Positions 4,498 through 40,776 of a stretch of DNA of 64,000 nt are shown in pieces (position 1 is the stretch's first letter; each line of letters opens with the position of its first letter). Source of the DNA: Streptomyces pinistramenti (GTDB lineage: Bacteria; Actinomycetota; Actinomycetes; Streptomycetales; Streptomycetaceae); the NCBI RefSeq assembly GCF_020564935.1, contig NZ_JAJCXB010000011.1, positions 1-64,000 of the forward strand, in the 5' to 3' direction. Below the pieces are notes generated by a model, which saw only the letters and a program-made list of their open reading frames with translations, had not been told where the DNA came from and made no database searches. The translations under genes and the position numbers were made by a program.

Positions 4498-5925
4498 TCA
4501 GCGGCGCTTGCGCCCGCCGCGTTCCTGGCGCGGCGGGTGCTGGCCGCCGCCCGGCAGCGCCGGCTTGGGCAGATGCGCCACGTCCCACTGGGCCTCGGCC
4601 AGCTGCCGCGCGGTGTCGTGCGGCAGCCGCGGCGGCCGGTGCGCCGCGTTCCGGAAGCCGAACGCCGAGGTCAGGTCGCCGAAGGTGGACCGCCGCCAGT
4701 TGCTGATGTTGGGCTCGTGGACACCGGTGAAGCGCTCCAGGAACTGGAGCACGGAGGTGTGGTCGAACGGGTCGCCCGCCGCCCAGCCGCCGACCGTCCA
4801 CGGCGAGATGATCATGCAGGGCACGCGGAAGCCGCCGCCGATGGGCAGGCCGCCGACGAACTCGTCCGGAGTGCCGGCCGGCGGGGTGGGCGGCGGCACG
4901 TGGTCGAAGAGCCCGTCGTTCTCGTCGTAGTTGAGGATGAAGGCGGTCTTGCGCCAGACCTTGGGGTTGGACGCGATGGCCTCGATCTTCTTGGCGACGA
5001 AGTCGGCGCCGGCGGCCGGCAGGTAGTCCGGGTGCTCGGACTGGTGGCTGGTGGGGATCAGCCAGGACACCGCCGGCAGCCGGTCGTTGCGGGCGTCGTC
5101 CTCGAACGTGCCGGCCGGCTGCGGCCGCACCCCCTTCTCGTACAGCGCCTCACCGGGCTTGGCGTTCCGGAAGTTCTGGAACTGCTCCAGGAGGTTGCAG
5201 CCGTAGTCGTCCTCCTCCTGGTAGACCTTCCAGCTGACCTTGGCCGCCTCCAGGCGCTCGGCGTACGTCGTCCAGCGGTACGGCTTCGGCGCGGTGTTGT
5301 TGAGGATCGGGCCGCCGTGCCTGCCGCCCGGGTCGAGGGTGCCGGTCATCCAGTACAGCCGGTTGGGCCAGGTCGGCCCGAAGACCGAGCAGAAGTAGTT
5401 GTCGCAGAGCGTGAAAGCCTCGGCGAGGGCGAACTGGAAGGGGATGTCCTGGCGGTTGTGGTAGCCCATCACGTACGGCCCGTTGACGCCGTCGGCCTTG
5501 CGGTGCGCGGGCAGCCAGCGGTCCATCTTGCCGCCGTTCCATGCCTCGTGCTGGACCGACCAGGCGTGGCTGGTGGACGGGATGGCCTGGGCGCTGGAGG
5601 TGTGGGTGTTGAGGCGGAACGGCAGCAGGTAGCCGTCCGGGTTCACCGCGTCCGGCTGGTGGAAGACGGAACGGCCGTCGGAGAGCGTGAGCGCGTCCGG
5701 GTCGGCGAAGCCCCGGACGCCGCGCAGGGTGCCGAAGTAGTGGTCGAAGGACCGGTTCTCCTGCATGAGGAGGACGACGTGTTCGATGTCGCCCAGCCCG
5801 CCGTGCCGGGGCGGCCCTGCGGCCACGGCCTTCTGGACGCTCGGAGGCAGCAGCGACAGCGCCGTGGCGCCGCCGATCGCGCCGGCGGCGGAACCGAGGA
5901 GTCTGCGTCGGGTCATATCGGGCAT
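4498..5925 (-). CDS. Tat-exported phospholipase C / phosphoesterase family protein
   Basis: Alkaline-phosphatase-superfamily phosphoesterase of the non-haemolytic phospholipase C/AcpA group, expected to hydrolyse phosphodi- or monoesters outside the cell. The N-terminus carries a twin-arginine signal (MTRRRLLG) and hydrophobic stretch. The catalytic segment MQENRSFDHYFGTLRG, with metal-binding Glu-Asn, follows near residue 50. Later motifs include the LTGTLDPGG region and NYDENDGLFDHV, which supplies metal ligands. I chose ATG 5925 because GGGAG lies about 8 nt upstream; a GTG at 5934 would overlap that site. It lacks the long C-terminal domains of haemolytic PLCs. Substrate unknown. Confidence 0.85.
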   Translation of the reverse strand: MPDMTRRRLLGSAAGAIGGATALSLLPPSVQKAVAAGPPRHGGLGDIEHVVLLMQENRSFDHYFGTLRGVRGFADPDALTLSDGRSVFHQPDAVNPDGYLLPFRLNTHTSSAQAIPSTSHAWSVQHEAWNGGKMDRWLPAHRKADGVNGPYVMGYHNRQDIPFQFALAEAFTLCDNYFCSVFGPTWPNRLYWMTGTLDPGGRHGGPILNNTAPKPYRWTTYAERLEAAKVSWKVYQEEDDYGCNLLEQFQNFRNAKPGEALYEKGVRPQPAGTFEDDARNDRLPAVSWLIPTSHQSEHPDYLPAAGADFVAKKIEAIASNPKVWRKTAFILNYDENDGLFDHVPPPTPPAGTPDEFVGGLPIGGGFRVPCMIISPWTVGGWAAGDPFDHTSVLQFLERFTGVHEPNISNWRRSTFGDLTSAFGFRNAAHRPPRLPHDTARQLAEAQWDVAHLPKPALPGGGQHPPRQERGGRKRR

Positions 5926-6114
5926 AGGTGGCACTCTCCCTGTGTCGCGTGAGACCGCAGTGGGACGACCCGACTGTCTCGGCGGGTGGGTTGCACGGGC
6001 AGGGGGAGATGGCTGAACTATGTGTCAAATGGCTATGAACAGGCGCCAGTTGGCTGGGAAAAGCTACGACATGTACGCCGATTGGTGCAGTGCGGGAGTT
6101 TCGGGTGGCGCAGG

Positions 6115-6693
6115 TTAGGGACGCTCGTCGGGCAGCAGCGCGGCGGCGGCCGCTGTGTTACCGGCCCGCACCAGGGCGTGGATCTCGTGGGCCAGCGGCG
6201 TCACGTCCGTGATGCCGGTCGTCCATTCGTCGGCGTAGCGCCCGGACGCGTCCCCGGACAGGCCGAGTTGCAGCGAGCGGTGGCCCAACGGCCGCAGCAG
6301 CAGGTCCCGTTCGGGATCCCACTGCACCCGTACCGGCGACTTTTTCACCTGCCGCTGCCAGGTGGCGCGGTCGGTGTGCACGTCGGGGTCGTAGCGCGAG
6401 AGGCAGGACGTGCGCAGCGCGGTGTCGAAGCCGGCCCGGTCGATCTCGATGGCGAGCACGGTCTCCTGGCCGGGCTTGGTGCCCCAGCCGGAGCGGTACA
6501 TCATCCACAGGAACGACGGTTTGATCCAGGTCATCCGCTCCCGCTTCCAGGCCGCGGGGAAGCGCCCGTCGCGGGCGGCGGGAACGCCAAGTTCGGGCGC
6601 GTACGCCTGATGGACGGTGACGGTCCTGGTGGTGTGCAGGGCACGGACGCGGCGCACGGGTTCGGTGGCCGGTGGGGTGTGATCAGGGGACAT
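6115..6693 (-). CDS. DUF4291 family protein
   Basis: 192-aa cytoplasmic protein with the conserved DUF4291 core: RALHTTRTVTVHQAY near residue 16, the hallmark WIKPSFLWMMYRSGW near residues 56-70, and KPGQETVLAIEI just after. The biochemical role is not established. It faces the same way as the deaminase upstream, separated by 75 nt, so co-transcription is possible. No signal peptide or membrane segment. Only a weak ribosome site precedes the ATG. Confidence 0.85.
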   Translation of the reverse strand: MSPDHTPPATEPVRRVRALHTTRTVTVHQAYAPELGVPAARDGRFPAAWKRERMTWIKPSFLWMMYRSGWGTKPGQETVLAIEIDRAGFDTALRTSCLSRYDPDVHTDRATWQRQVKKSPVRVQWDPERDLLLRPLGHRSLQLGLSGDASGRYADEWTTGITDVTPLAHEIHALVRAGNTAAAAALLPDERP

Positions 6694-38635: not shown

Positions 38636-39440
38636 TCAGCCCCTGAACGCCTCGCCCCGGACGCCGCCGACGAACGAGGACCAGGCGGCTGCCTCGAAGA
38701 CCACGGCGGGCCCGTCGGGTGTCTTGCTGTCGTGGACGGGGACGACGCCGGGGAAGCCGTCGGCGACCTCGACGCACGCGCCGCCGTTCTGGTTGCTGTA
38801 CGAGCTCTTGCGCCATGCCACCGTGCTGCCGTCCGGAGACCGCAGGAACATGGTGTCGCTGTTCTTCAGGGCGTGGGGTCCGACGGCGAACGGCACGGCC
38901 TGGATCGTGATGTTCCGCCGCTCGCTCATCTCCAGCAGGAGCTCCAGCTGCTGGCACCAGGCGGCGCGATCGGGCAGGGGAGTACGCAGCACGGCCTCCG
39001 ACAGGATCGTGCGGAAGTGTGGCGGTTCCTTACGTTCCAGCAGCTCGCTGCGCCCAATACGCGCTTCCACCTGCCGGGACAGCTCTTCGCCGTCGAGGCC
39101 ACCCGCGGACAGCAGTGCCTGGGCGCACTTCTCCGTCTGCAACAGGCCGTGGATCGTGCTCACCCCGTAGTGCCACTGGCTGACCGCTTCGGACTCCGGC
39201 GTCATGTAATAGCGGTATTGCTCAAGGAATTGGCTCCGGTCGGCCATCGCCGGCTCCCACAAGGTGGGGAACGAACAACGACGCGTCCCAGCCGAGAGCT
39301 TCGCCGAGCTGACGCAGGCTCTCGCCCCTCTGTGCCCGGAGTAACCGCAGCTCTTCGGCGAACCGTTTGCGGGCTCCTGGCTCCGGCCCGTGATCGCTCG
39401 TCGTGGCGGCATGTTCCGCCCCCTTCGTAGCAGGCGTGGC
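38636..39440 (-). pseudogene. Broken XRE-DUF5753 regulator fused to DUF397
   Basis: Remains of a third XRE/DUF397 pair. The helix-turn-helix (RKRFAEELRLLRAQRGES, LRQLGEALGWDASLF) is in one frame around 39370-39290. The rest (MADRSQFLEQYRYYM, IHGLLQTEKCAQALL, a truncated DUF5753) is in another, because the segment joining them has been lost with a frame change. A second in-frame deletion joins DUF5753 (DTMFLRSPDGSTVA) directly to a complete DUF397 (WRKSSYSNQNGGACVEVADG). No proper start precedes the helix-turn-helix frame. The 3' reading frame could still yield a DUF5753-DUF397 protein. Confidence 0.75.
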
Positions 39441-39611
39441 AGTAACGCCGTACGGCCGGGAACAACGGCCGTACGGCGTCGCCTCGTGCGCTGTAATGAA
39501 CGCGCGCTCAAGGCTTTCCCGCTATCCAAAGTGGCCCAATTACCGTTATGTGTAATGGCGTTGGGGGTTGCAGGGGGAATTCCCGGCGTCGGCCGGATCG
39601 CCGGTGATCCG

Positions 39612-40433
39612 TCAGGAGGCCGGGACGCCCGAAGGGACCGTCGCCGGCGCGGACCTGCGGGGCTCCGGAGCCGTCAGCTCCCCGGCGCCCGCCGGGACGG
39701 GCACGGCGGCGAAGATGGCGTTCTGCTGGGCCTGGAGTTCGCGTACGCGCTCGGGCGGGGTGCCGGGCAGGCGCTGCTCCTCGTACAGCTTGTGGGTCTC
39801 CAGCTGGGCGGCTTTGCTCTCGGGGGTGTGGAACTGGACCTCGAAGAGCTGGCCCGAACGGGGCGCGCGCCAGGCGGAGTTGATGGCCTTGTAGCCGGAC
39901 TCGCGCTTCCAGGTGTTGGCCCAGCGGGCGCTGTCGTTGCCCCAGGAGGACAGCAGTCCCGCGGCGGTGGCGACGCCGGCGCTGTAGCGGCCGGAGGGCC
40001 ACTGGAGGGTGTAGCGGACCGAGTCGTTGATCTGCGCGAGCGATGCGTTGACGGTCTGGCCCGGTGTCTCCTGCATCCAGGTCGCGACCTTGCGCTTGAG
40101 CGAGTCCGGGGACTTCAGCCGCTGGTCGAAGCCGACCAGCTCGGCGTGGCTGAGCTGCGCGGCGGCCCGGATCTGCGGGCTGATGGAACGTTCGGCCTGC
40201 CGGGCGCGGGCGGCGAAGGCGTCGACGGCGGCGTTGTCGGAGGCGTTCAGGTTCAGGCCGTCCTGGTGCCAGCCGCCGTCGGTGCCGGTGTCCTGGCCGG
40301 TGGTGTGGGCGGACTTGGCGGCCTTCGTGGTGCCCGTCGGGGCGGCGGTGGCGGTGTGGACGGCGCCCAGGCCGAGGGCGGCGGCAAGGGCGGCGCCGGT
40401 GACGGCCCGGCTGACGGTGCGATGGGTGTTCAT
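39612..40433 (-). CDS. Secreted RelA/SpoT-like nucleotide 3'-pyrophosphokinase
   Basis: 273 aa with a Sec signal peptide (basic start, hydrophobic core, ATA-AP cut near residue 30). The mature part resembles the extracellular ATP:nucleotide 3'-pyrophosphokinase known from Streptomyces morookaensis, and shows a minimal RelA/SpoT synthetase set: basic KSPDSLKRK near residue 107, INDSVRYTL (D137, R140, Y141), GYKAINSAWR near residue 180, and FEVQFHT (E198, Q200, H202) with TH-x-LYEEQR after it. It would transfer pyrophosphate from ATP to the 3'-OH of nucleotides, outside the cell. No hydrolase (HD) or TGS/ACT domain. Tail Pro/Ala-rich. Confidence 0.78.
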   Translation of the reverse strand: MNTHRTVSRAVTGAALAAALGLGAVHTATAAPTGTTKAAKSAHTTGQDTGTDGGWHQDGLNLNASDNAAVDAFAARARQAERSISPQIRAAAQLSHAELVGFDQRLKSPDSLKRKVATWMQETPGQTVNASLAQINDSVRYTLQWPSGRYSAGVATAAGLLSSWGNDSARWANTWKRESGYKAINSAWRAPRSGQLFEVQFHTPESKAAQLETHKLYEEQRLPGTPPERVRELQAQQNAIFAAVPVPAGAGELTAPEPRRSAPATVPSGVPAS

Positions 40434-40630
40434 CGGAGTGCGGTGTCCCTCTCTGCGAGTGCCGCACGGTGCCGTGGAGGCAGGTGTGCGGCGGGTGGCG
40501 AGAGGTGCAACGGTCCGTCCGGCCCATCGGTAGCGGGCGCGCGGCCATGGGGGTGTACATGACCGGATCGTGGCGCCGTGCGGCGTGAACTCGCCGCAGA
40601 AGCGGGCCGTTCCGTGCAGCGGACAGGCGA

Positions 40631-40666
40631 AGGGCCGCCCCTCCCGAGCGGGGGAGGGGCGGCCCT
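40631..40666. terminator. Strong hairpin in the gap between NlpC/P60 and pyrophosphokinase genes
   Basis: Perfect 15-bp stem (40631-40645 / 40652-40666), 6-nt loop, with TTTTC on the + strand. The 343-bp gap 40434-40776 holds no other gene or clear signal. Confidence 0.8.
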
Positions 40667-40776
40667 TTTCAGGCGCTAGGGGACATGAGCGGCATAACGC
40701 ACCGCTCGTGCCCGTGAGTTGTCGCCGGAGCGTGCCGGTGCCACGCGCCGCAGGGGCTCATGGCACTCAGGGCGGC

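Follow-up and report, generated by a model that had tools for sequence, protein, structure and literature searches.

The gene on the minus strand at 39612–40433 of the window, the whole 64,000-nucleotide stretch of Streptomyces pinistramenti DNA that was analysed, is, judging by sequence and by the predicted model, an ortholog of SaEAS, the exported alarmone synthetase of S. albidoflavus (mBio, November 2025; AMM07692.1; PDB 8vx3; PMC12691689), and encodes a signal peptide followed by a small RelA/SpoT synthetase (SYNTH) domain. The reading frame opens with ATG and specifies 273 residues followed by TGA. The initial annotation had proposed a secreted RelA/SpoT-type synthetase, and this proposal is supported by the homology to SaEAS, the match with 8vx3, and the predicted fold. 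The gene is genuine and the core of that reading is correct; since the SaEAS family has already been published, the window gene is a member of a described family.

In a phmmer search of the PDB sequences, 8vx3 (molecule name SaSAS) matched residues 53–258 with E = 8.1e-84, and the row after it reached only E = 0.46. The AlphaFold2 model, built from 35 sequences, had a mean pLDDT of 85, with nearly all of the residues below 50 located within the first 46. Comparison of a predicted structure with RelA/SpoT folds had been suggested as a check, and it revealed the synthetase fold: the Foldseek match between the model and 8vx3 had E = 6.6e-26 and TM = 0.93 by target length, the top ranks were occupied by the four 8vx3 chains (TM 0.91–0.95 by target length), and cytoplasmic small alarmone synthetases, CapRel, and Rel followed as far weaker matches. 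The phmmer and Foldseek matches with 8vx3 indicate that the SYNTH assignment is not due to chance. The Pfam RelA_SpoT model gave 11.8 bits against a cut-off of 27 (E = 0.29), far below the threshold, and the NCBIfam XopAD model matched the same region with E = 1.5e-30, its 105 bits being set against a whole-protein cut-off of 2000. The assignment is therefore based on the SaEAS family match and not on Pfam, which alone would have missed it.

The precursor carries a predicted Sec signal peptide, as was originally claimed; a simple hydropathy/AXA heuristic finds an AXA site in residues 1–31, and no twin arginine (Tat motif) is present within them. Among 46 distinct sequences that share 50% identity or more, the window's among them, the heuristic calls a signal peptide in 39, and three further ones are visible by eye (L005, L020, L057). 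Apart from the signal peptide, the SYNTH domain, and a short C-terminal tail, no further domain of the synthetase is recognised by Pfam. The surface role that had been suggested from the tail is unsupported, the tail being short, variable, and Pro/Ala-rich.

The catalytic residues D137/R140/Y141 and E198-x-Q200-x-H202 are as first described. In the alignment, D137, R140, N185, E198, and Q200 correspond to D121, R124, N169, E182, and Q184 of SaEAS, and D137, R140, E198, Q200, and H202 are invariant among 35 aligned sequences. In a wider set of 49 rows with 50% identity or more, including three duplicates, D137 is kept in 48, R140 in all 49, E198 in 47, Q200 in 46, and H202 in 48, while position 141 is occupied by Y in 40 and by F in nine. 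K154 of SaEAS, which is listed as ATP-binding (PMC12691689), aligns with R170 of the window protein; this position holds R in 19 and K in 25 of the 46 distinct sequences mentioned above, again counting the window's own.

Table 1. Coordinates of the predicted features in the window and in two relatives with a Lys-rich stretch.
Feature	Record	Coordinates	Strand	Basis
Exported alarmone synthetase gene (SaEAS ortholog), 273 aa	window	39612..40433	-	ORF, homology, fold match
Sec-type signal peptide, residues 1–31, predicted cleavage ~30/31	window	40341..40433	-	hydropathy/AXA heuristic
SYNTH domain, residues 53–253	window	39675..40277	-	PDB 8vx3 alignment, model, fold search
D137-S-V-R140-Y141 active-site motif (= SaEAS D121/R124)	window	40011..40025	-	sequence alignment
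E198-V-Q200-F-H202 active-site motif (= SaEAS E182/Q184)	window	39828..39842	-	sequence alignment
Candidate promoter CGCTAC-N17-CGTTGC, ECF/sigma-BldN-like	window	40507..40535	-	motif-based inference only
Strong hairpin after the NlpC/P60 gene, probable terminator before the synthetase gene	window	40628..40669	-	alignment in relatives, folding
Signal peptide, Lys-rich stretch, and SYNTH	L020	1474-2751	-	
Signal peptide, Lys-rich stretch, and SYNTH	L022	1030-2178	+	

According to the parts of PMC12691689 available to us, SaEAS is secreted through Sec, and the extracellular synthetase activity is lost upon deletion of its gene. The donor is ATP, and guanine and adenine nucleotides serve as acceptors, which yields extracellular (p)ppGpp and (p)ppApp with a kcat of approximately 95,000 to 190,000 per minute; the Km values for ATP and guanylate acceptors are below 100 µM, which fits extracellular action, and the cytoplasmic SasB and RelA are much slower and have higher Km (PMC12691689). 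The window protein resembles SaEAS in combining a signal peptide with SYNTH, in its fold and catalytic residues, and in that no adjacent immunity gene was found beside its gene. It differs in having R170 in place of K154, in a longer stretch between the signal peptide and the core, and in the position of the gene at the nuo/NlpC locus; identity with the protein derived from the S. albidoflavus genome is 67% over 204 residues.

Cytoplasmic small alarmone synthetases such as SAS1 and RelP are not known to carry a signal peptide; SAS1 of B. subtilis and RelP of S. aureus share the SYNTH fold with the window protein at a Foldseek E of about 1e-4 and 12–17% identity. The XopAD/skwp type III effectors and the SYNTH domains linked to phage head proteins show approximately 29–33% identity over the SYNTH region among the matches listed, and they differ in being borne in effectors or minor head proteins, with other delivery routes. 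An ATP:nucleotide 3'-pyrophosphokinase of S. morookaensis was reportedly described by Oki et al. in 1975. That enzyme, cited in PMC6491832 and PMC3153485, is likewise described as a secreted purine nucleotide pyrophosphotransferase, and it is stated to hold a SYNTH domain (PMC3153485). The parallel with S. morookaensis drawn in the initial annotation is thus borne out, a secreted RelA/SpoT-type synthetase being the kind of enzyme behind that activity.

By analogy with SaEAS, we regard it as highly probable that the gene encodes an exported enzyme of the same type, which leaves through Sec and makes (p)ppGpp/(p)ppApp by extracellular pyrophosphate transfer. The precursor would exit through Sec and have its signal peptide removed, after which the extracellular SYNTH enzyme would use ATP to pyrophosphorylate the 3'-OH of nucleotides, those of guanine being better acceptors than those of adenine. 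Production of (p)ppGpp and (p)ppApp would occur upon release of ATP nearby, for example by lysis, and export would spare the cytoplasm of the producer from a fast synthetase. Most likely, then, the window enzyme is secreted and makes both kinds of alarmone outside the cell; that it behaves like SaEAS, and what purpose its product has, we infer. The product may serve signalling to neighbours, their poisoning, or nucleotide salvage, the purposes suggested in the initial annotation. ATP and GTP are scarce outside cells, which counts against an explanation by an extracellular synthetase, and we know of no demonstrated physiological source of the extracellular nucleotides.

Matches with E ≤ 1e-10 were detected in 26 of 295 genomes of the genus, the own genome included, and a second query with a second cut-off gave 30 of 392. 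A collection of named genomes yielded 42 loci, of which 27 bear Streptomyces in their title and the remainder, going by theirs, belong to other actinobacteria. One relative with 65% identity lies on a Streptomyces plasmid, near the end of the record (NZ_CP108386.1:200434-201027), and is annotated as 'ATP nucleotide 3'-pyrophosphokinase'; another 44 plasmid and 36 phage records have matches, all below 60% identity. Clusters of two to three distant SYNTH-like matches with 31–36% identity were observed at G241 C11:267392-271150, G035 C4:339781-341578, and G060 C4:121590-123282. PADLOC gave no defence-system match, and membership in such a system was rejected on this ground.

A plausible immunity gene beside the synthetase was found neither at the 31 homologs located elsewhere nor at the 12 loci of the nuo/NlpC site; a lineage-specific one may be present. 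The flanking ORFs of the 31 homologs are common only to sets of three to five related genomes. At seven of the 12 nuo/NlpC loci, a CMD-family gene (Pfam) on the opposite strand is convergent with the synthetase (L002, L003, L004, L031, L033, L037, where it occupies 5770-6360 of the minus strand, and L038). It is absent beside the window synthetase, although a relative with 72% identity is encoded at another place in the own genome; we read it as an ordinary neighbour rather than an immunity gene. The DUF5753-DUF397 ORF next to the synthetase gene was rejected as an immunity protein, since tblastn at E 1e-8 matched it at only two of 72 loci, the window's own (L001) and the distant L066; the flanks covered in this search were either 1.5 kb or 5 kb, depending on the locus. 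This ORF (38636-39529, minus strand) has DUF5753 fused directly to DUF397 in one frame, with no other Pfam domain found. DUF5753 and DUF397 are normally encoded by separate neighbouring genes, so the fusion may be a deletion remnant.

These data bear on the reading of the protein as a diffusible antibacterial toxin, which would enter competitors and kill them by depleting their GTP/ATP, as the type VI effector Apk1/Tas1 does. When SaEAS lacks its signal peptide and is retained in the cytoplasm of E. coli, it is toxic and kills the cell from inside (PMC12691689), and related SYNTH domains are found in effectors of several secretion systems. The secreted SaEAS had no effect on B. subtilis, S. 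venezuelae, or S. coelicolor (PMC12691689), Pfam sees nothing beyond the signal peptide, SYNTH, and the tail, and Pfam, PADLOC, and the neighbour comparison gave neither a cognate immunity or antitoxin gene adjoining the synthetase nor a delivery domain, as would be looked for in a toxSAS or other antibacterial toxin; we consider a toxin unlikely. Less credible still, to the point of being nearly negligible, is a non-functional remnant or an enzyme with a target other than free nucleotides, for example tRNA, as in CapRel: the ORF is intact, the catalytic residues are retained, and the nearest structure by far is that of SaEAS, which acts on free nucleotides (PMC12691689), to be weighed against the presence of CapRel among the more distant fold matches, the replacement of the lysine by R170, and relatives in which Asn replaces the catalytic Asp (L020, L022) or a frameshift is apparent (L021, L057). 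The synthetase copies of L021 and L057 lie at the nuo/NlpC locus and appear frameshifted or decayed, for which a sequencing error is possible.

It is also very improbable that the enzyme is attached to the surface and acts as a unit with the neighbouring NlpC/P60 cell-wall hydrolase, the neighbour from which a surface role had been suggested. We compared the neighbours in 28 genomes, namely 18 of the 26 with the synthetase and 10 of the 269 without it. The NlpC/P60 and synthetase matches are 272–898 bp apart in eight of the 18 synthetase genomes, those with the synthetase at the nuo/NlpC locus, which speaks for a unit. The best NlpC/P60 match, however, is 1.0–2.3 kb from nuoB (distances between matches) in all 28 genomes, including the 10 without the synthetase and the 10 with the synthetase elsewhere; a functional link was rejected and the suggested surface role is left unsupported, as the hydrolase stays near nuo with or without the synthetase. 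Furthermore, the two genes are set apart by a strong hairpin and a separate promoter-like element. The hairpin, 40628..40669, has an MFE of −39 kcal/mol and a z of −6.3, and it is not listed by the scan for T-run terminators; 13 of 14 aligned upstream regions fold at −27.5 to −40.3 kcal/mol within 180–304 bases of the start codon, and the fourteenth, L036, has no NlpC match in its flanks. Given the position of NlpC/P60 near nuo regardless of the synthetase and the intergenic hairpin, the adjacency seems to reflect inheritance of a single insertion site rather than a functional pair. PMC12691689 divides 152 Streptomyces homologs into five clusters and finds no conserved position for the genes of its clusters C–E; in the present comparison, one sub-lineage keeps the synthetase at nuo/NlpC.

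Returning to the exported SaEAS-type enzyme, the alignment of upstream regions shows that a promoter-like element is kept in relatives at the nuo/NlpC locus. The promoter comparison covered 42 upstream regions in 13 groups with no 12-mer common between groups; homologs below 45% identity, those without a callable start, the duplicates L032, L041, and L050, and also L019, L021, L023, L048, and L057 were excluded. With the BldN consensus as its seed, a leave-one-group-out profile recovers [AC]GTNAC(C)-N16/17-[CG]GTTGT, with p < 0.05 against random genomic segments in 36 of the 42 regions and, by median, in 10 of the 13 groups, the controls being shuffles and random genomic segments rather than other promoters. 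In this profile the S. albidoflavus gene had a weak score (p = 0.06). A second implementation gave nine of the 13 groups, with the window's own group at 0.055. The seed scores were 22.44 for BldN, 22.45 for SigE, 22.42 for SigR, 19.9 for WhiG, and 15.0 for HrdB, with 20.0 for the best of 60 random seeds; because the seeds for SigE and SigR end up at almost identical sites, the designation 'ECF-type' is favoured over BldN in particular. With two mismatches allowed, chance alone would give 1.8 matches to the element TTGCAYCTCTYGCC in the window, and one is present; its mere presence is therefore no evidence, and the case for the promoter rests on conservation. The sigma-70 scan gave nothing at the candidate promoter.

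The published BldN consensus is CGTAAC-N16-CGTTGA (PMC2375139, available to us in part). Used in fixed form, it reached p < 0.05 in nine of the 42 upstream regions, and its best match in the window was not significant (p = 0.10) and located elsewhere than 40507-40535. With N16 or N17, this consensus has two sites in the own genome, one of them upstream of a response regulator gene on the same strand. We take this regulator to be BldM, a known BldN target; sigma-BldN is the sigma factor of bldM, the chaplins, and the rodlins. Overall, the conservation suggests that synthetase genes at unrelated loci probably have an ECF-type promoter, and that the candidate is served by sigma-BldN in particular is possible but the less favoured case. 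A wider scheme, in which the Sec-exported alarmone synthetases of Streptomyces would belong to a developmental programme, with a sigma-BldN-class ECF promoter active during aerial hyphae formation and lysis of the old mycelium and with ATP/GTP from lysis turned into extracellular alarmones, we regard as rather doubtful. The expression of SaEAS, described as low and apparently constitutive, counts against a BldN-type promoter (PMC12691689), and a shared ECF-type promoter motif was not met in the parts of PMC12691689 available to us.

In three genomes of the genus, a relative downstream of the NlpC gene has a Lys-rich stretch between the signal peptide and SYNTH (L020, L022, and L107, in this order below). 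The stretch is 175, 132, and 188 residues long; Lys+Arg account for 56, 41, and 59 of these and acidic residues for only six, five, and three, respectively. It is matched by Pfam HC2 (histone-like) in L020 and L022 and by extensin in L022, all below the cut-off, and these matches could arise from composition alone. The stretch may tether the protein to anionic polymers. Relatives of this kind were not met in the parts of PMC12691689 available to us, and its main text contains neither 'linker' nor 'lysine'. At the position of D137, L020 and L022 carry Asn, whereas L107 carries Asp. Since the D121A mutant of SaEAS is inactive (PMC12691689), the enzymes of L020 and L022 may, by analogy, be impaired.

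Taken together, the enzyme class is already known, and the window contributes a further ortholog, placed at a defined locus. Comparing the loci discards the lead to the cell-wall hydrolase and offers instead a promoter motif similar to the one used by a developmental sigma factor. The remaining interest lies in the purpose of extracellular alarmones and in this promoter lead, as the motif could tell when the enzyme is made and hence where its substrates come from.
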